Origin: Sipunculus nudus
Lineage: Eukaryota > Annelida > Sipuncula > Golfingiida > Sipunculidae
Assembly (NCBI GenBank): GCA_026874595.1
Contig: CM049307.1
Coordinates: forward strand, 30,109,079 to 30,173,078
DNA length: 64,000 bases
Direction: 5' to 3'
Shown here: positions 3,191 through 43,600 of the stretch, in pieces
Layout: the number at the start of each line of letters is the position of its first letter
Numbering within the stretch: position 1 is the stretch's first letter
Made by a program: the position numbers and the translations under genes
The notes under the pieces: generated by a model
What the model saw: the letters and a program-made list of their open reading frames with translations, nothing else
Told to the model about the DNA's origin: nothing
Database searches by the model: none

Positions 3191-3201
3191 TTATAATTAT
3201 A

Positions 3202-4058
3202 AGCTCAGCTGACTATAAGTCATCTGAGCTATAATGATGGTCCTTTCTTTGTCCAGCCGGCTGTCAATGTTTTGAAACCAGTGGACCTACAAATCCTAAA
3301 TTCTGTATTACCAGTTAGATGTCCAAAAGTTCTACCTAACCAAAAACTGGGTCACCCGGGCTTTGTTCCTTTCAAAAATTAAGGAAAAACCTTCATTTTC
3401 AAAACCTATTGTTAGTTTTTTTGTTACACTACAAAACTGCTCACTATGAGAACCACTTGTGTTAATGTATTCATGTTTGATATAACCATTCCTGCATTGG
3501 TTATTCCCTTTATATGTTTCCTATGTACATCCCAGAAAGTAGGTCAATATTGCATAAATTGTTGAAGTTATGGGCTGAAACATATTGCACTTATTAAAAT
3601 CAGGAAATATATTTACTCACCAAACAAGATAATTGTTGAAGCTAGCAAATTTTTTTTCTTAGGATATATCTTAATTTATTCGAGATTTTTGTACACTAGA
3701 AATCAGATCAGAATTTCTTAAATTAATAGCATAATTGCAAAATCAGTACCATAAATTTGGCCCAACTTTGACCATGACACTTTTTTCCCTATATGCACCA
3801 TGTATTTAATTTCACAGTATGTATAAATAAGGATTTAATCTTTTAAAATCTGATAATGAAAAAAAAGCTCCAAAATGGGCTAGAAATTGAATTTTTATTT
3901 GTGGCCCTATTCTATTGACTAATTTTGTCAATCCCCAGGCAGCCCACTTCTGGTCACTTCAGCTCTGCTTTGGTAACCTTATAAGTAATGCATCACTGGT
4001 TGAGCACCCTTGCTGTCTCAGGTGTACAGTAATTCTCAAATCACCCCCCCCCCCCCCA
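3202..4058 (+). repeat. Family B repeat copy (uninterrupted)
   Basis: Begins with the 29-bp hairpin, then a segment aligning over several hundred bases with 38,569-40,520 (shared phrases include TTAAGGAAAAAC and TTTGCCCAACTTTG-like blocks). Both copies run into a poly-C tract (4044-4058 here, 40,499-40,520 there). This copy has no insertion after the AAGGAAAAAC segment, so it serves as an empty-site reference for the 38.8 kb insertion. Confidence 0.75.
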
Positions 4059-4110
4059 CACACACACACACACCCACACACCTACCCCTGCCCACCCCTT
4101 CACACACAGC
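4044..4110. repeat. Poly-C and CA/CCA-rich simple repeat
   Basis: A run of 15 C followed by ACACAC and CCCACACACC-type sequence. It sits at the junction between the family B copy and a LINE fragment. Confidence 0.9.
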
Positions 4111-4175
4111 ATTAATTGTTATATTTGAACTGTATATATTCTTAATTGTTAAGCTGTTTTCACTCAAATGTACCC

Positions 4176-4506: not shown

Positions 4507-4792
4507 GAATTTAGGGTTTTCTTTTAGGAATCTTTGCGTTAGAAGGAATCTACATTTTATGTTTCAGTAAAATTGTGCTTTGTGTCTTGTCAAGTGCTTT
4601 TGATAACTATTTTGTAGAATTAGCACTATATAAGTTAAATATATTATATCATTTATTATATTATATTGCTTGAGATAGTAATTCAAGGACTAATCAAAAG
4701 CTTTTGTAGCATGTTTAAAGAAATTAATTTCCATTTAAATAATTTTAACAAATTAAATAGAATTAAACCCATCAGAATGTATTACTTGTATC

Positions 4793-6175
4793 TGCCACAA
4801 CGAACACCGTGTTCGTTTCCGGAGAACTCCTCTGAGACTACTGGACTGATTTTTCCGAAACTTACACCAATTATCGGATCACATGTTAACTTGTGCCTAA
4901 CCAATTGGGGTTGCCCTCTGACCTTTCCTCTGTGCCCAGCGTCCATTTGTACATGTTTCCACACACAAACCCACGTATTTCAGGAACCGTTTGACCAATC
5001 AGGAAAAATGTTTTTGTACAATTACAAATGTAGCCCTTGATAAGCTTTATAACATACAAAAAAAAAATGGTGGCGCCACCTGCAACCATGTTTTCGCAGT
5101 GTCCATCTGTTCGTCTGCCTTGGGTTAAAATCACTCATATCTCTGCAGTGATTTGACTAATTCACCTGAAATTCGGCATGTGTATACATCCTGGATAGCT
5201 TTCTTGATTTTATGACAGGTGGCACCACCAACATTCACGTTCACGCTACAGACATCCATGCTTATCTCTGGACTGGTTTGACGTATCTTCCTGAAAATTT
5301 GCATGTGTATAGATCTGACGTAGCTCTTTATCATACGCAAAACTGGTGGTGCCACCTGCAACCATTTTAGCACAGCGTCCGTCTGTTTGTCTGCCGTGAG
5401 ATAAAATCACTCCCATCTCGGCAGTGGTTTGACATATCTGCCTAAAATTTTGCAGGTTTATACATCCTGGATAGCTTTCTTGATTTAATGACAGGTGGCG
5501 CTACCTACATTCTAGTTTATCTGCAGACATCCAAGCTCATATCTCAGGAACCTTTTGACAGATTGGGACAAAATTTGCATGTGTATAGATCTCACATAGC
5601 TCTTTATCATACACAAAACTGGTGGGACCACCTGCAACAATTTTTGCACAGTGTCTGTCTGTTTGTCTGCAGTGGGCTAAAATCACTCAAATCTCAGTAG
5701 TGGTTTGACTATCTGCCTAAACTTTTGCGTGTTTATACATATTGGATAGCTATCTTGATTTTTTTGGAAGGTGGCCCCACCTACATTTATGTTAACGCTG
5801 CAGACAATCAGGCTTGTATCTCAGGACTGGTTTGACATATCCCCTTGAAATTTTGCATGTGTATAGATCTCACATGGCTCTTAATCATACACAAAATTGG
5901 TGGAGCCACCTGCCACCATTTTTGCACAAATCCTTCTGCTTGTCTGCTGTGGGATAAAATCACTCATATACATGTAGTGGTTTGACTTATCTGCCTAAAA
6001 TTATGCATATGTATACAACTTGGACAGCTTTCTGGATTTTATGGTAACACACCTCACTCTATATCCCCTTGCCACTCACTCCATGCCTCACTTCACTGGT
6101 TCCACTCTGATTTCGGCGGATACACATAGTCACTTGTCGACTACCTGTATTCTAGTTGATAACTGGATGAGCCAA
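4793..6175 (+). repeat. Family C repeat with about four ~277-bp tandem units
   Basis: Four units are marked by GGTGG(C)GCCACCTGC-like segments at about 5069, 5345, 5620 and 5899, a spacing of 276-279 bp. Each unit also carries phrases such as GTTTGACATATC and CATGTGTATAGATCT. The left flank (4793-4930) matches 38,513-38,565 joined to 41,213-41,300. The right flank (6045-6175) matches 41,627-41,745. It is therefore an uninterrupted copy of an element found nested at 38.5-41.7 kb. Confidence 0.8.
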
Positions 6176-7440
6176 ATTATCTTATTCTTAATAAAAGGTA
6201 TTTGTTCCCAATGTTCTCTGAAACCGCGTTGCATATGACACTGTGCCAAACCGCATTTTAAAGGTTATTGTTCCAGCAGTGACCTTGCAGATATGAGAAT
6301 AAATAATTTTTAATATACACATCATTTTGAGGGATTTTGCTTGTTTTATGATTTGCATAAAGGTTACCATCTTAAACCGCCAAATTGCCTTTGACAAAGA
6401 CCTGATTGCCTTTGTGGTCGCCTCTAGGACCGGATCAAGGACTATAAGTGCAAATGAATAATACCTGCATGGTCAAGTAAATGTGAAAACATGACTCTCA
6501 CTTTAAGAAAAGGATTGGTTCAATTAATAGGATTAATGACAAAACCTAATACAGGGTCTCTATTTCCTGAAAAGGGGTGGGGGTGGTGTGGGGGCAGGGG
6601 TTCAAAGCATCAAAATTGGTCTGTTACAATAAAAAAAAATGGCAGAGGCTGAAAGGAGGGTACGGGCCTCCTTGACTCCCCTTGGGTCCAGTCTGCTTCT
6701 GCTACTAACTAGGTATGCATATTTCTATTTCTTTCTTTCTTCAGGAACAGTTTCCTTGCGTTAAAACATACATTTAAAACATCTTTCATGTCTTCCTCAC
6801 ATCAATCTATTCTTTATCTGTCTAACAACAGTAACCAATCAAAGATCATCAAAAACCTGAATGCCCCCGCATCTAATGCCAGTTTTGCAAATGTAACCAT
6901 CATCACTGGCCAGGTCTTCAAGGTAAACATACCGGTATATGAATTTCTTGCCACGAGCACAGTTCCACAAAATAAATGTTAACAAACATTTGTACATATC
7001 TTTTTGAGACAGTATCCCACTGAAAATCTTTTTTTCTATAAACTTTTAGATTAAAAACAATGAGCTCCATTCTTCATCTCAGTTAATACAGTTCCCCAAC
7101 CCAGTAAAAAGCCCGGTACTCCAAGTTTATAAGAATTGTGAATTCTGAATCAGTTTTTATTTTCATATATCAATATTTATTGTTGCACATATTACTGTCA
7201 CATAGCTGAAATACTGATACTTGATACTTGATATTTAATCAAAGAGGCTCCTGCATCTTTGATATAGTTCATTAAAGTGTGCACAGTATTAGTTTGGCAA
7301 ACATATATTTAGTATTTGATAACACAGCTATTTCCTCTTATATTTTCAAGTGCTTATTTATATAAAACAATAGAAAATAATTATATTTTGCATTTGCTAA
7401 AATTTAAAAAAAATCAGCTGTATCTTGCATTTGCTACAAT
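6176..7440. other. Intergenic DNA, G-rich patch, no gene seen
   Basis: Mostly unique AT-rich sequence. A G-rich patch at about 6576-6602 followed by CTTGGGTCCAG near 6680 vaguely resembles the element at 62.33-62.56 kb. No exon with convincing splice sites or domain was recognised. Confidence 0.4.
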
Positions 7441-7486
7441 TTTTGAAAATTCAGCTGAGCGCCGTGACCCATGGGTCCCTTATTAT
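7441..7486 (+). repeat. Solo 3' end of a family B/E element
   Basis: Contains CAGCTGAGCG, the palindrome GACCCATGGGTC and CCTTAT, matching the right ends at 1231-1262, 41,180-41,212 and 44,581-44,612. The rest of the element cannot be delimited here. Confidence 0.6.
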
Positions 7487-13600: not shown

Positions 13601-16600
13601 AAAGATTCGCTGGGTTTTACCGCCGGGGCTGGCACAGAGCAAAGAACTGTATTCAGACCAATGACAATATGGTATCACATTGTGCTTCCAGCTCTTAGTT
13701 TTTAACCCTTGACACCAGCTCTTGTTCTTCTGATTCATGGCCCTATGCAAAAACAGTTTTGAAGCTTTCTCCGAGCAACACACATAACCTGCCTCCAGTA
13801 TCAAATGTAACCCTTTCTCTCTGAAAGGTTGTTTGTAATGTGTGGATAAAAGTTGGATACCTGTTACTCTTCATGCATATTTTAAAGAGATTAATTCCAT
13901 GCATCTGATATTGGTAATGTTTAGTATGTATTTATTTTGTATCCTGAAAACGATGGCTGAAAACACAATGTGGCATTTGTTCCTGAGATGTATAAAAGTA
14001 TATTACACAATTTGAAATAAAAATGTTTTGTGGTATGGGCACATTGTGAAACTTATAAAAAGATTGTTATTGACTTGGTCAGATTTTTTGTGGGAAATAC
14101 TAAAGGACAATGGATATGATTGTTTACTAATCATGACTATAGGTGTAGTATCTTTAAAATGTGTTCTGGTTATCAATGTAAGAGTCAGCATTTTCTCTTG
14201 TTCCCTTCTAAGTAGTATTTCTTATAACAACATACTCTCAAGGATAAATTGCTTGGCCATAAGCATGAAATAGACCAATCTGTTTATGTAACACTGCCAG
14301 GGAGTTGCTTCCTCAAACTGTGGCAGGTGAGCTTGATATATTACACAGCCTGTCAAGTAAGCTTAGTCAGGTACTGTGATTTAATAGCTCCCAGCCTTAA
14401 GGCAGGCTAGCTGGGCTCAGTGACCATCATTTATGCATGATAGAGCTTGTTTGTTGTAGACCTTGACTTTTGACATTTAATGCTGCACAAGACAACTAAT
14501 TTTTCAACAGTTACTAACTAACTGTGAGCATCTCTTAGTGTCTTGTCAATTTGATAGTTTCATACACACACGCATGCTCAATTATTCAAGCTATATATTT
14601 TAATTCCGTTATGTGTAATTTACTTTTTGTTGTTTATCTGGCTGTCTTCGTTTCATTTTATTTTGCAGCTTCAAATTTCCTTAAAATGACTAGTTTTATA
14701 ACCAAGTATTAAAAAATGGAGGCAGTAACATCCACTAACAAAAAGTTTTATAACCATAGAGTGTATTTAGTTGTGAGAAAACCAGATATTTTTCTTGCGA
14801 TGCTGTGACGTCTTTGTGGACACTCCGATAGCATATTGAAAATAATTCATTTTAATAATAGCAGATACTCATTAAATTTTTTAAGTTTAGATATTTTTAA
14901 AAATAAATCTGAAAGCCTTGAATGAGATAGTTCACACACCCCTATTAGTGCTCATTACAATGACTCCTGATGTATATGTTGGTGTCTGCCATATCAGAGA
15001 ACAATAATTCTGAGGCTAATACTAAGCTCAGCTTAGTTAAAATAAACCATCAGGGTATTTCCAGGGTTTGTACCCTTTAATTTAACAAAAAAATATATAT
15101 CTGTAAAATTATTTAATTTTAGAGTGTGTTGAAAAGCTCTGGAAGTGTTTTTTCAAAACAGTCTTTTGTCTTCATAAAATCAGAAGTAAATATGTTATGG
15201 CAGACAATATAAACAATAGCTGTGTGACTGAGGTAGGTCATTATGATACAGTATACTTTACAGGTAAATATTTATTTGCATTTGTAGCAAGTGGTCTTGA
15301 ACATGATTTTGTTTCAATATAGCCCAGATTTGAAAGCACAGATGGATCTCATAATAATGAAATTGTTTGAACTCTTGGCTAACTTAAAGATTCATTCATT
15401 TCAGGGTTTGACCATATTGGGTTATTTAGAGTGAATGGTAACGTGCGTGTGGTGGAACAACTTAAGACCTCATTTGACAAGTCTGGGAACGCCGATTTAG
15501 AAGCTTGTATGGATGTGATGGCAGCAGCGGGACTTCTCAAGTTGTTCTTAAGAGAACTTCCTGATGCAGTCATTCCAGAGAGCATGACGCAGCTGTTTGT
15601 TCATGCGCAGACAAGTAGGTGGCTCACTGACAGTTGAAAGTCAAGACCCCATAAATGTGTACTATGGTGATATCACACTTTGTCATCTGTTATGCAACAG
15701 AGGATAATATAATGCAGAGTACAATCATCTGATGTACCATCCACTAAATAATATCCAAATGCAGATTTCCTTCATGCACTGGTTTTTTGGGTCCTCATTT
15801 GCTCACATTATATAAAGAACTCCCAAATCCAGCAAACTACCAAAGATGGTACAATCATTGCCTGCAAATATTCTTTTTTTTTTCTCAGCTGACTGCTAGT
15901 CTACTATTTGTAAAGTTAAAAGGTGAAATCTGGCTTTTGCCTTTGGCTTTCCATACTCATTTTTGCACTGCAAGCCTTATTTTGTACAGTTGCATTATGG
16001 AATGGATATTTATAGCATTATGACATAAATTGTCATTAGACCTTAGAGGATATCTTCGTTTGAAAGTTCCATCATTCATCTGCAGGCTTGCCTGTCCTCT
16101 TTCTCCATACAGTTACAATGTTTTATGGTTTAATAGAAATATTCTAGATTTAAAAATATGTTCAAACATTGGTAGTCTAAGCTAAAATGATGTCAGAAAT
16201 CTGAAATCTAGAAAAAATCATGGAAAATATGCCTTCATTATTGTATCGTGATCTTCATTCTTGTACAGTAGACAGCACCATCTTCAAGCACTGAGTCTGT
16301 CATTTTCATAACTTAGGTCTTACTGCAGTTTGCTCTTGCCAGGACTTAATGGACTCTTTATATAATGCTGTGAGTCAGACTTGTTTGTATATTTTGACCT
16401 TGGTTTCAGGTAACAAGACTAACGATACAGAGTTTTTACATCAGACCCGCACCCTGTTGATGAAGCTTCCTGAGCCAAATTACAGCCTCCTCAAGTACCT
16501 GTGTCATTTTCTAGTCAAAGTCACTCTCCACGAGGAACTCAATAAGATGAACGCAACAGGACTCGGTATTGTGTTTGGACCAAATCTCTTCAGGTCAGTA

Positions 16601-19600
16601 GCAAACATACTGTGGCTTGTAAACCTTCTATTTAAGATATGATACATTAATATATAGGTATCACTGTTGGTAAGGAAATAACATTTTTTTCAAATTGCGA
16701 GAACAAATATACTGGCTAAATGTTTGAAGTGACTTATATTTCTCCTTTCTTAGCACAAAGTAAAGACACTGTAAAGCAACAGAAGAAAATTTGTCCAGCT
16801 CTTCATTTAATAATATTAGTTATTACCAAATAGATTTTCTCTTATTGATGTAAACATAATCACTAATAAGGCGTCCGTGCAAATTTTATTTTAATTTAAC
16901 CAACATAGTTACAGTGAACAATTTTTTGCTCAGCTATGTTGTATTCAATCTTAGTCAAGTTCAACATCATTGGACATAGAACATTTGTACTAAGATGATT
17001 AGAATGACAGACTATGTAAATCAGTCATGTGTATGAAAAGTCTGTAAATGAGAATCATACATCATCCAGATGTGATGTATTCCTTGTATTTCTAGTTTTT
17101 CTACATGATTGAGAAAAGAATAGTCATGTTAAAAAAAAGATAATTATGTAAATTTGATTTCTCTCTTGCGTTGATGAAGCAAGGTAAAATATCATTACTT
17201 CTTCATTATATACATGTTACCTCTATCAGCATTAATTCAGTTTCTAAGTGTGCTGTGTCAAAGTTAACTTAATTATAAATTAATTGTAAATTAATATGTG
17301 ACAGAATGATTCATGTGTTATTGCGATATAATTGAAACAGGAGAGAGTTATTATTAGTCTAAAATTTGTGGAATATTAGTTTTGATTGCTTCTTTTACAT
17401 AATTCATCATTCTTCATGATACATTAATGATCATCAGTATACATCATGTTTAGCACCAAACTTGCAAGGGATTTGATTGACATCTCCTGGGTTATTTATA
17501 GTCTGTCTGCTGGCTCTGATTAATACATATCCTGCTCATTATCTCATCATCTGGAACTAGCGGATTCTGGTCTACAGCATAAATAATATTATCACCTTGA
17601 GCAACTCAACAAAAGCAGCACCTAAAAGCTAGGGTCATGTAGCTCTGATGAGTGGATATTTAAATATTAATTAGGTCAAAATGCCTGTTGCACATCATGA
17701 TTTGACTAATACCATAAAGTTATGTTGTCATCACACCTTGAATTACTAGAATTAATCCAGTATTATGTCAGTAATATGTTGTTATTAAACTTTTTTGTGG
17801 TAACATAGATTTTGGTAAGATGAGACTAATTCTCTGCATCGTTTTGTTTGAATGAGTTACAATATTTGCACCTATGTTTGATTTTTCTTGAACTGCAGCC
17901 TCTCTGCTCCCGGTCAGCCAAGGTAATTATCGTTGTAACTAATTGTGCTAACACATTCATAGTAAACACTGTTGCCTTTTTGGTATACTATGGTATTTTG
18001 ACACAATTAGTACAAAACCATATCATGAGTTTCTTTGGAAAACTGCTTTGAAGCACAATTATTTGACACAAATAAAGTTCCTCAGCACTTACATACAATG
18101 CTTCCTGAGGTTAAACTGTCACTGTAACCACTTGGTACACACAGTCTGTCACTTGCATGTTGTTATTATGTTTCTCAGTATTATTAGGTCTGTTCATACC
18201 TGTTTACTTTCTGTTACTTTCTGCTACTTGTGTTCAGTATTCTTATGTATCCCTGCTTTTCAGTGTCTGTAAATTATGTGTCTGGCATTATGGTTCATAG
18301 CAGAAACCCCTAGAGAATTTAAGATAGTTGTGCTATAATTCATTGTCAAGAGAAGACAATTAAAAAAATAAAAGTATATTTTAACATTGATTTTGAGATA
18401 TAATGATACAAACACCTGCAAGTAAGATTTTTTAAAAATCGGCACCACAGATATGAAATGTAGTTGGAATTCTTAAAATTATAAAATTTAGTTTCCATGA
18501 TTATGCTATAACAAGATAAAAACTTCTCACATAAGAATCTAAAATTATGTTTCTTGGCAGAGGTATTGTGATTAAAGTCTGTCATATAAACACTGCACCT
18601 TAAGGACATCTGAAATATCTTTTCATGCCCCGGCCACAAAGTGGCCGGCGCTTATATTTTTATCCATGTCTGTCATTCCAAAATAAACAGTTGTATGGAC
18701 TTTTTTTCGCAATGCCTGCAGATATTGGCCTGATTTTTGGTGTGTGGGCAGATAATGACCAGTTACAGATCAAGTTGGTGTTTCTTCACGGTTGACCTAC
18801 TTTTGACCGTATGACGGCTCCGGAACAGAGAAAATTTCATGAAAAATAGAAATTTTCATGATAAGTGCACATGTACAGACTTTTTTTTCGCAATGCTTGC
18901 AGATATTGGCCTAATTTTTTATGTGTAGGCGCATAATGACCACTTACAGATCGAGTTTGCCTTTGTCCCGGCTGACCTACTTTTGACTGTATGATGGCTC
19001 TTGAACAAAGGAAATTTCATGAAAAATAGAAATTATTGTGACAAATGCACATTTACAGCATTTTTTTTCGCAGTGCTTGCAGATATTGGCCTACTTTTTG
19101 GTGTTTTGGCGCAAAATGACCACCTTCAGATCGAGTTCATGTTTTGTTCAAGTTGACCTTCTTTGACCATTTGACGGCTCCTGAACATAGAAAATTTCAT
19201 GAAAAATTGAAATTTTCATGATAAATGCACATGTACAGACTTTTTTTTCGCAATGCCTGCAGATACTAGCCTGAATTTTGGTGTTTCGGCAGATTATGAC
19301 ATGTTACAGATCGAGTTTGCGTTTTGTCTAGGTTGACCTACTTTTGACTGTATGACCACAGAAAATTTTACAAACTTTAACAAATATTTCTAATTTGCTC
19401 CAGGTGGGGGCATTCGGGGCGTTCCTACACATCCAGTTTTATGCTGATTTAATGCAGCCTAAAATCTGTGTCTGTCCTGGTGCTTTGCAAGAACATTTGT
19501 CTTGTTATTGGTGTATAAATTGAAGATTAAAGGAATTTGTTTGATAAAAATTTGTGTATGTACAAAATCTTTACTAACTTTGCAATTTTTATGTGGATTG

Positions 19601-37600: not shown

Positions 37601-40600
37601 TCCTTGAATTTTGTTTGTTAAAGGAATGCTTTTGTTTTTATATTCAAATAATTGTTTTATCTTCCTTCACTTGAATTCTTCGTATGTTACAGACAGATGT
37701 ACCAAATTGATAAATTTAAATTATTTGAAAATTCTTGTTTTATCCTTTAAGTATGTTCAGATCTTTCAGTTATACAATACTAGAGTCAGTTCCTGATACA
37801 TAATCTTGATTAACAGGATGTATGAATCTATTTAATTTGTACAGACAACATTTTGCAGTTTTTGCGTTTTGTTTTGTTTAAATGTTGGTTTAATGTTTCA
37901 TATTGCTAAGGTTATTGGTCCAAGTGACCATTGGCCATTTTAAGTTGAATGAACACTTAGGCCTGGCATGCACGCTACTGGAGGTGTGTTTGTTTCCAGC
38001 TTATGAGCATGGAGCAAATCAAAGAAGAGAAATTAGCCGTGCAAAAGGCCTTGTTACACTTTGAAAGCATCCATGGTAGACCAGTAAGTACCATCAAGTG
38101 GTGGCGTGTGTGTCATGGCCGCGTGTGTGTCAGCGAGGGCTTTGTAATGTACCAGTGGTCTGTGATCACAGGGACTACTGTATGCTGTCTGCTGTCTTAG
38201 ATAGAGCATGCTTCATGTGTGGGATTGTATTGATTTTGTCTCCTGTTGCATACCTCATTTTTCAAGAATTCAAATTGACCTGTCCTGAGTATTCCTTGAT
38301 AAAGATCAGAGGTATCTGACCATATTCCTTATTATCCATTCATAGGTGAAAAAATTTACAAGCATGATTAAGTCTATTACATTTGTGTAATACTGTAGTA
38401 GGTATTCTGTTGTTAGTAGTTTGTACTTTTGGTGGTATCCTATTCCTAACACTCCTCTGCAGTATCATTGTATCCGCAAAAATTAAATTTTTGAAGATAC
38501 TATGTTTTTGACTGCCGCCACAGTGTTTATTTTTGGAGAACTCCTCTGAGACCGCTGGACCCATTTTTAGCTCAGCTGACTATAAGTCATCTGAGCTATA
38601 GTCGTGGTCCATTGTCCGTCGTCCGTCCGTCCGTCTGTCTGTCTGTCCGTCTTTCCGTAGATGTGGCACGTTTTGAAACCTTAAGACCAAGCAATCCAAA
38701 ATTCTGCATAATGGTAGACGTTCCCAAGATCTCTTACCAAGCTGAAAACTGTGTCTTTGCGACTTTGTTCCTTCGAGAAATTAAGGAAAAACTCAATTTT
38801 TTATTATTATGCCCCCGCCACAAAGTGGCCGGGGCATATAGTTTTACCCATGTCCGTCATTCCGTCCTTCCGTCATTCCAAAATCAAACAGTTGTACAGA
38901 CTTTTTTTCGCAATGCCTGCAGATATTGGCCTGATTTTTTGGTGTGTGGGCAGATATAGACCAGTTACAGATCGAGTTCGCGTTTCGTCCCAGTTGACCT
39001 ACTTTTGACCGTTTTATGGCTCCTAAACTTAGAAAATTTCATGAAAAATAGAAATATTCATGACAGGTACACATGTATGGACTTTTTTTCGCAATGCCTG
39101 CAGATATTGGCCTGATTTTTGGTGTGTAAGCAGATATAGACCAGTTACAGATTGAGTTTGCGTTTCGTCCCAGTTGACCTACTTTTGACCGTTTTACGGC
39201 TCCTGAACATAGAAAATTTCATGAAAAATATGAAATTTCATGACAAATACACATGTACGGACTTTTTTTCGCAATGCCTGCAGATATTGGCCTGATTTTT
39301 GGTGTGTCGGCAGATATTGACCAGTTACAGATGGAGTTCGCATTTCGTCCCGGTTGACCTACTTTTGACTGTTTTACGGCTCCTGAACATAGAAAATTTC
39401 ATGTAAAATATATATTATTATGTACTGACTTTTTTTCCTCAATGCCTGCAGATACCACCCTGATTTTTTTTGTGTGGGCAGATAATGACAGTTACAGATC
39501 GAGTTTGCATTTCATCCCGGTTGACCTACTTTTGATTGTTTTACGGCTCCTAAACATAGAAAATTTCATGAAAGACAGAAATTTTTATGGAAAATACACA
39601 TGTATGGACTTTTTTTCACAATGCCTGCATATACTGGCATGATTTTTGGTGTGTTGCTTGATAATGACCCGTTATAGATCGAGTTTGCATTTTGCCCTTG
39701 TTGACCTACTTTTGACCATACGACACCTCCTGAACTTAAAAAATTTTCCAAATTTTACAAATGTTTCTAATTTGCCCAAGGCGGGGGCATTTGTGTCGTT
39801 CCGACACATCTAGTTAAACACCTATTTTCACACTTCAGGACCGCCTAATATCAAAACCACTCATCTGTTTTTCCTCATATTTGCCATAAATATTCCTCTA
39901 TATAGTTCCTATGTACATGCCAGAAATTAGGTCTGTATTATATAATTTAAAAAAGTTATGGGCTCAAACATAATGCATTTTGTAAAAAATCAGGAAAAAT
40001 ATTTGATCGCTTGACACAAAACATGTAAAAGCTAAGGACTATTTTCCAGTAATATAACTTTAATTAAAATTAAATTGTATACCCAAAATAAGATCAAAAT
40101 CTTTTAAATTTTTCAAAATATTAGCAAAAATAAAAAATTGGTACCTTAAATTTTGCCCAACTTTGGCCTCGGCACGTTTTTTTCTTTTAAGTACTGTGGA
40201 TTTAATTTTCACAGCATGTGCACATAAGGATTCAAACTGTTAAAATCTGAAATTTGAAAATAAAAGCTGCAACATTAGGCTTGTTATTAAATTTTTTTTG
40301 AGGCTCTTGTTGTATTCCCTTACATTGTCAAGCAGTCCACTTTGGTCACTGTAGGTCATTCAGTGCAGCTCTCTATGCTCCCCAGGCTGTAGGCATAATG
40401 TTATGCAATCCCATCACTAGGGCAAGCCCTCTCTCCACTGAGTTGAGCTTGATCAGGCTGTTTGCAGTTAATACCATACCACAGGGAGCCTTTTTCTTCC
40501 CCCCCCCCCCCCCCCCCCCCCATTCTGTTGACAGACCTGTACTATGAACTAGATGAATCTTAAAATTAACATTTTTTCAGCAACGAGCAGTAACAACGAA

Positions 40601-43600
40601 GACCTCTCCCCTCACCCACCCCTTCAATACACAGGACTAATAAACAAGATGAATCTTATAATTTTAATGTTAAATAAATTCTTTTTTTATGAGACTTGGA
40701 CAATTTTGATTTTTTTAAAGAAAAAAATACAGGAATTTAATCCTAATATTCAAATGTGATAAAATATTAGGATCTAATGTAAGTGCTAACTGACAAGATT
40801 TAAGAAAATATAAATACTTTGTAGCATTTCATTCATATCTCTTAAAGTTGGTGGGGCCTAGGTGTGAATAACACTGTTAACTTAGTATTAAAATTAGGAA
40901 TATTGGTCAAACATATATTTAAGCCATATATTTAACTTTTGAAAACTTAATTACCTTCACACATTATTTGTTTATGAAATGTTACTTTTATATAACACTT
41001 ACCGTAGGCCAATTTGTTCCCTTGGTGCATCACTAAATGGTTTAGCACATGTTCATTATTCTATAATTTACAGAGTTTCATTTTAGCCGGGCCTTTTTCT
41101 CATAGGTTTTCTATTGATAATATACATGAAAAACCAAATGAAATAAAAATATTTTGCAGTCACTAATATTTTCCAAAATTCAGCTGAGCGATGTGACCCA
41201 TGTGTCCCTTGTTCTGAAAACTTGACCCAATTATCGGGTCACATGTAAACTGGTGCCTAACCATTTTACCTTACATCTGACCTTTCCTCTCTGCAGTATG
41301 CCACCTACATACATGTTTACACTGCATACATCCATGCTAATATCTATGGGAATGGTTTGACGAATCAGCCTCAAATTTAGCATGAGTATAGATCTTATAT
41401 AACACTACAGCTTATACAAATTTGGTGGCCCAACCTGCAACCATTTTTGCTTGGTGTCCATCTGTTCATCTGCCATGGGTAAAAGTTACTCATATCTCAG
41501 CAGTGGTTTGACTTATCCACCTAAAAATACACAAATATATACATCTTGGATAGCTTTCTCCTTCAAATAACAGGTGGTGCCACCTACAATTATGTTTACG
41601 TGGCAGACATCCATGCTAATGTGCAACACATCTCACTCTATTTTCCCTTGCCACTCAATTCATGCCTCACTTCGCCAGTCCCTCTCTGATTTTGGCAGAT
41701 ACACATAGTTGCTTGTTACTACCCATATTCTAGTTTATGGAAGTCTATTTCTGTGTAAGTGTTTACAGATTGGTTGTCACCGATTGCTGAAGGAACACAT
41801 TGAATTTCAAAAGGTATAGCAGCTTGCTAAATTAGCCATATAAGTGATTAGACCTGAGCATATTTCCCATGTTTTCAAACATAGGAACTTGCTGGGCTCT
41901 AAATCAGTTGGGTTCACTATAATCTATTATCTAAATGCATTTCTACCTGACGTGGGACTGTAGTAAGGAAGGATATTTAGATTTTAAAGGGCAAAGGATG
42001 AGACCCTTACCTATGGTTCTTTTGATCCAGGCATAATACCAGTAGAGACACATTTGTATTCCTCAGAAATGACATGTAATTCTTACAGAACTAATAAACC
42101 TTGAGTGTACAGGATTGCTTGACTGTCTGGAAATTATTAAGATCTTTACTTATAAAGTGAGCTCTTCAACTTTATTAGCCAGATTATACCTGTTAAGATG
42201 AGAACAGTATATTGGTTTATAAGTTCTCCTTTTTCCAAAATATTTTGTGTCATTTACAGCAGAATACACGTATGGTAGCCATGTTAATGACTGTGACTGA
42301 AAATTGTTTCCCAGTATGCAGTGTTACAGTTTTCTTTCAACATCCAGCAGAGTTTTTATATTTGAATCGTTCATTTTAATTTTGGCTCACTAATGGTATT
42401 TTAATGCTGAAATAATGGCAGTAAAATTTGCTTAGCACATGGGCTTGATACAGTCATGCTTGTTTTAATCTTTCATTTTAAACCTTGATTTTCTTTACAA
42501 AATTAACAGTTCTTACCTTTCTCAGGACATTAATACTGCATGAATGTCAAGTCATTTTATGCTGTATCTTGAACTGTTGTTATCTTTGGAAGTAGAGTTT
42601 TATATCTCATGATTTCTGTAAAAACTCCTTTTGTATGTTTACATTTATTGGGTTTTAGCACTTGTCCAGGTAGTGATAAATAAATCTATCAAATTATTTG
42701 TGAAATATCAGTTAATTTTATATTTGCTTGAAGGATTATCAGCAGTTGTAATCTGATAACATACCTATCATAATACTGTGTTCTCTCACACATTAAAACT
42801 CTTTGAAATATGTTGCAATTTGTATGTTTCAAATCTCTGACTAACCATTTATTAAAACTCCTTTTGTTTTCTAGAATAGATTTGTATATGTATAACCTTG
42901 TCATTACAGTCTAACAAGGCCGAGAAGGAACTGATGAAGCCTGTATATGACCGCTACAGAACAGTCAAGCGAATGCTGGCCAAACCCTGGGTGAGTCTGA
43001 CGGATACAGCTCTTCTGTTTTAAAGTGCTGCTTTGGTATTAAACCAAGCTTATGCAATTGTATAAAGTTCAAATTTGGTTCTTTAAATTTATGTAAAACT
43101 AATTAAGTCTATTTTTATAGTCTTTCCTGAGAGATATAAACCATTTAAATGGCATTATTTTATTTAACAAATAACCTCCTTTATGTTTACTGTCACATAT
43201 TCCTTCAGCAATTATAGGATTATTTTAACAGGCCCTGAAACAATACATAGTCCTCCTTCAATTGCTTTCATAAGATAACAGTTTGAGCTTAATGTTTTAG
43301 AAAACACTGGCTATGAATTAAGCTGATGTTTGCGGGTATTTTTCTTAGCAATCACTCTTTAGATAGCAATCACTCTTTGTCTGACCTCCGTCCGGCCATC
43401 CTGCCATCTGTCTGTTAACAGGGCACAAATCGTAACCGCTGGACCTGGAATCTTCCAACTTGACATCCAGGGAGGTCCATGAAAATTCTCCTTGAAAACC
43501 TGGAATAAGGTCTCTGTTACCCATATAATTCTTCGAGCTATGGGGCTCCGAAGTACCCCCCAGAATAATGGAAAATTAGATACAAAAGCTCAAATATCTG

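Follow-up and report, generated by a model that had tools for sequence, protein, structure and literature searches.

The 64,000-nucleotide stretch of Sipunculus nudus DNA analysed here (hereafter the window) features RhoGAP exons at 15383-15637 and 16295-16642 (Pfam). A nest of mobile elements at 38469-41734 is flanked by two further translated segments, ESIHGRPV near 38.06 kb and KPVYDRYR near 42.95 kb, which resemble the conserved C-terminal region of FAM13 proteins. Based on the RhoGAP exons and these flanking translations, the gene is FAM13-like and the nest is intronic, in agreement with the intronic position given in a preliminary description of the window, where the gene is named FAM13A.

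Layout of the nest and further copies in the window

Window self-comparison and alignments of the joined parts revealed an element of family C that is split by an element of family B, which is itself split by an element of family H. The parts are as follows.

38469 to 38568, forward strand: C element, 5' part, with palindromic 5' end TGTATCCGCAAAAATTAAATTTTTGAAGATAC, terminating in the T-run pad CCCATTTTT
38569 to 38808, forward strand: B element, 5' part, with hairpin AGCTCAGCTGACTATAAGTCATCTGAGCT and a (TGTCCGTC)n microsatellite (38613-38658), terminating in the pad CTCAATTTTTTATTATT
38809 to 39814, forward strand: complete H element, with 5' hairpin ATGCCCCCGCCACAAAGTGGCCGGGGCAT, 3' inverted copy GGCGGGGGCAT, a 3' hairpin and the end CTAGT
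38893 to 39746: tandem array of H, 4.8 copies of a 180-bp repeat
39815 to 41212, forward strand: B element, 3' part, with subterminal TCAGCTGAGC and the end CTTGT
41213 to 41734, forward strand: C element, 3' part, with subterminal GGCAGATACAC and the end TTCTAGT

The nesting of B in C and of H in B, as previously claimed, was borne out, as the joined outer parts of B and C align straight through the junctions and both outer elements resume directly behind their inserts. The split points were refined to 38568/41213 and 38808/39815. The start of C was moved from 38513 to a position about 44 bp upstream (around 38469, TGTATCCGC), since other C copies start with TGTATCCGCC; the 5' part of C is thus delimited by a 5' end inferred from other genomic copies, by its hairpin and by a match to 4805-4854. 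When the 3' part of B was compared with the genome, 39 other copies were scored, most of them full length, with a top identity of 93%.

The further copies of each family that had been described elsewhere in the window were all matched, and one more probable B copy was found.

65 to about 1265, forward strand: probably one further B copy, with the B-family 5' end AGCTCAGCTGACTGAAAG at 65 after the pad CAATTTTT and a B-type 3' end near 1265
3201 to 4140, forward strand: B copy without H, 5' end intact
4788 to 6156, forward strand: unbroken C copy; tandem repeat of 276 bp at 5063-6043, empty pad ATTTTT at 4849-4854
18625 to 19437, forward strand: second H copy, located in non-B sequence

In the self-comparison, H matched 18625-19351 with 81% identity over 748 columns (E 0). 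B matched 3502-3958 (71%, E 8e-53) and 3196-3246 (88%, E 5e-11), and C matched 4805-4854 (82%, E 4e-6) and 4858-5265 (71%, E 1e-44). The known 3' end motif of B was not found shortly downstream of the B copy starting at 3201-3202, which is therefore probably truncated. A B-type 3' end (CAGCTGAGCGCCGTGACCCATGGGTCCCTTATT) was also observed at 7421-7484, with its 5' part absent nearby.

Anatomy of the three element families

All three families have a palindromic 5' end, and an inverted copy of its first arm is found 23-32 nt from the 3' end. These inverted copies are GGCGGGGGCAT in H, TCAGCTGAGC in B and GGCGGATACAC in C family copies, with GGCAGATACAC in the C element of the window. Folding of the 5' hairpins in the window yielded -12.9 (H), -10.4 (B) and -6.7 kcal/mol (C), values equalled by no shuffled sequence. 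The 5' hairpins of H and B share the same geometry (8 pairs, a 1x1 mismatch, 5 pairs and a 3-nt loop) despite unrelated sequences, and that of C differs from this geometry by a single bulge. A search of 289 kb for further families with the same geometry yielded no convincing candidates. The 3' hairpin is clear in H (z -3.8). That of B is moderate in another copy (z -2.2) and degraded or lost in the window copy, and that of C is degraded in the window copy and weak in other C copies.

The 3' termini are CTAGT or CTTGT, and comparison of empty with filled sites showed that the elements enter T-runs and that the target is not duplicated. Each family carries internal repeats (a 180-bp unit in H, a 276-bp unit in C and (TGTCCGTC)n in B), and no coding capacity was seen in H, B or C. 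The hallmarks of canonical Helitrons are a 5' TC, a 3' CTRR and an insertion site between A and T. In the three families the 5' ends are ATGCC, AGCTC and GTATC, the target is a T-run and the terminus of B is CTTGT, although H and C do carry CTAG ahead of the final T. Taken together, H, B and C all fit non-autonomous elements of the Helentron (HINE/Helitron2) type. The label 'Helitron-like', applied in the preliminary description to the innermost layer, is adequate for H, but B and C share its element class, so that the label extends to all three layers in the Helentron/Helitron2 rather than the canonical sense.

A large H insertion in B and a widely spaced pair of H junctions in B were encountered elsewhere in the genome. 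The insertion spans 20.8 kb (G000 C9:74718159-74739107; loci L006, L023, L079 and L080); its content includes an H in inverted orientation, a long minisatellite and an open reading frame matching a hAT dimerisation domain (Pfam E 2e-4). It was considered as a possible autonomous partner and rejected, the hAT match being a fragment, and no autonomous partner of the three families emerged from the analysis. At the second site (G000 C5:72915147-72958239; loci L010, L025, L081, L082 and L049), the 5' and 3' junctions of H in B lie about 43 kb apart, and the approximately 20 kb sampled inside consist entirely of the 180-bp H repeat, which suggests a single H array grown into satellite-like DNA.

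Recurrence and independence of the insertions

The nest is not unique, as the same arrangement recurs elsewhere in the genome. Dozens of B copies carry H at this same spot, where it uses two positions separated by 4 bp, TTTTT|H|TTATTAAAAACC (first) and TTTTTTATT|H|TAAAAACC (second), for which the empty site is CTCAATTTTTTATTAAAAACC. The junction in the window corresponds to the second position plus an extra ATT. The 3' junction of H in B is intact at about 38 other places (81-96% identity) and the 5' junction at about 15; exact patterns were counted at 21 places for the 5' junction and at 15 for the 3' junction. At one locus (L017), H is inserted in a diverged second B repeat unit. Both positions are also occupied by B copies (L005, L066). 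The pad of C holds B at no fewer than six exact loci with differing C variants, and the B copies in it carry at least three kinds of 3' end. At L066, C, B and B are nested at the same two junctions as the nest in the window.

Identical junctions at dozens of places would be expected if H had entered B once and B had entered C once, with the composites then copied throughout the genome and one of them entering the window in a single event. The outer flanks of B vary by locus, which is likewise expected if B moves as a whole with H inside. Such a composite family, had it held, would have overturned the order of insertion claimed for the nest. However, in a tree of the B 3' flanks, the 12 rows filled at the second position require 12 changes and the 5 rows filled at the first position require 5; of these changes, at least 8 and at least 5, respectively, are forced by branches with strong support. 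Constraining the filled copies to one clade was rejected for each position (p-AU 1e-39 for the second, 4e-5 for the first). The tree of the B 5' flanks is less resolved, and one clade was again rejected for each position. Filled and empty copies are intermixed on the trees, and the pad is empty in all 15 sampled B copies closest to the window B by its 5' part. There are also two separate insertion positions, plus others in a diverged B repeat unit, and the B copies in the C pad have different 3' ends.

The divergence of the layers points in the same direction. Relative to the nearest sampled copy, H diverged by 1.2% over its 3' 260 bp and the surrounding B by 5.7% over 352 bp of its 3' part, while the best genome match of C is 85%, i.e. 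a divergence of about 15%. Whole-length top matches of H and of the 3' part of B both lie at 92-93%, so that the age difference between these two depends on the copies sampled and on the portion of H outside its repeat array. The junctions alone give the order C, B, H, and the previously claimed order is supported by both lines of evidence. We conclude that many independent insertions took place instead of the spread of one composite. For the window copy, a composite of B with H is rejected by the trees, by the existence of two positions, by the empty pads of the closest copies and by the divergence values; composite spread is strongly disfavoured at this locus, and we consider it highly improbable as an explanation of the nest.

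Origin of the nest and comparison with known systems

In the explanation that we regard as very probable, H, B and C are three non-autonomous Helentron-type families that share a preference for T-runs and provide pads for one another, with insertion at this locus in the order C, B, H. It builds on four observations: how the elements are organised, the presence of the pads, the repeated use of these pads and the differing divergence of the three layers. The preference common to the three families would be for TTTTT before the element and T after it, with no target duplication. As T-runs occur at fixed places in each family, each would serve as a landing pad for the others; inserts would adopt the orientation of the pad because the T strand sets the direction, and the same nesting would have arisen repeatedly as the families landed in the T-runs carried by one another. 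At this locus, C would have been present first, followed by a B copy in the C pad CCCATTTTT and lastly by an H copy in the B pad CTCAATTTTTTATT. A Helentron-type Rep-helicase acting in trans may have moved all three by rolling-circle transposition.

The numbers of copies and targets bear on whether the pads are favoured beyond this shared preference. Exact 20-base 5' ends were matched at least 2,691 times for H and at least 14,547 times for B in a pattern search of the genome, both counts being undercounts because the pattern omitted sites with G at the first flank base. TTTTT directly precedes H in 77 and B in 83 of the first 100 flanks listed for each. The same 14-base flank (CCTATGGTATTTTT, TATTTGTAATTTTT) was observed upstream of both H and B copies, so that other repeated pads are probably common to the two families. 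With about 9.6 million T-runs in the genome, an estimate extrapolated from one window, and about 19,000 B pads, around 0.2% of insertions are expected in a B pad by chance. The observed use of the B pad is at least 0.78% for H (21/2,691) and 3 of the 100 listed flanks for B, which, on this rough estimate, suggests some extra preference for the pads.

It has somewhat less than an even chance of being correct that no such extra targeting exists, and that the T-run preference and the huge copy numbers make nesting inevitable. This alternative drops the extra targeting only and is otherwise compatible with the explanation preferred here. At a chance level of about 0.2%, thousands of H copies are expected to yield some hits in B pads; the observed values lie above that level, but the comparison is rough, and the roughly 4-fold excess could be explained by local sequence, by chromatin or by uncounted B copies. 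That recombination or gene conversion between repeat copies, instead of repeated transposition, distributed the pads plus their inserts appears very unlikely: exchange would be easy because B and H are so abundant, a scatter of filled sites on the tree could result from gene conversion between B copies, and flanks are rearranged at L004, L014, L015 and L087, but at most loci the element ends are precise on both sides and the flanking B is intact, and the trees do not show the tendency of B flanks to travel with H that exchange should produce.

At three or more loci (L004, L014 and L015), the T-run in front of the 5' end of H is not that of the B pad, yet B sequence is found past the 3' end of H, so that some composite movement or rearrangement also occurs. 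Only a few such cases were seen, and some of them are ambiguous. At L004, the outer B resumes with a delay of about 112 bp, chimeric movement is an ambiguous reading of L014, and L087 is better read as a deletion than as chimeric movement. For Helraiser, bypass of the 3' end has been documented (PMC4778049), and composite Helitrons arising by self-insertion are discussed for Fusarium (PMC5148889). A more speculative possibility, to which we give a low probability, is suggested by the hairpin geometry common to H and B: a single enzyme, recognising the shape of the hairpin and not its sequence, would serve all three families, which would make up a network of mutual landing pads. If so, transposition from an inner 5' end in a same-orientation nest could overrun the inner 3' end to the outer one and create new chimeric families, with L004 and L015 as candidates.

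The nest provides a well-resolved record, left by nature, of rolling-circle elements inserting again and again at the same few bases, including empty sites, two positions and relative ages. Such a record makes it possible to quantify target preference in a group for which the mechanism of insertion has been little tested. It also serves as a warning that the spread of a composite element does not necessarily follow from identical nested junctions, even if these occur at many loci.

A text search of the literature with the element ends found no paper. Helraiser and the canonical Helitrons belong to the rolling-circle class like H, B and C, but the canonical TC start, CTRR end and A/T insertion are not those of the three families (PMC4778049). 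Helitron2-type elements of Fusarium oxysporum share with them asymmetric terminal inverted repeats and hairpins, and nested elements are discussed for them; in contrast to H, B and C, they are fungal, protein-coding and have other target and end sequences (PMC5148889). Non-autonomous Helentrons of the HINE or DINE-1-like type carry subterminal inverted repeats of palindromic form close to either end, insert at TT in T-rich DNA, contain central tandem repeats or a microsatellite, and lack coding capacity (PMC4067079). H, B and C resemble them in the subterminal inverted repeats, T-rich insertion, central repeats and lack of coding capacity, with the 3' inverted copy at about 23-32 nt from the end compared to 38-60 bp in the HINE of mites (PMC4067079). 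Cg_HINE of Crassostrea gigas, compared here by its description, likewise has satellite-like arrays between two modules, oligo-T sites without duplication and insertions into other repeats; the repeated use of one pad, as observed here, does not feature in the description drawn on (PMC7492417). Based on these comparisons, the nest is not a new system but a well-documented new example of a known process, the recurrent nesting of Helentron-type elements in T-runs.
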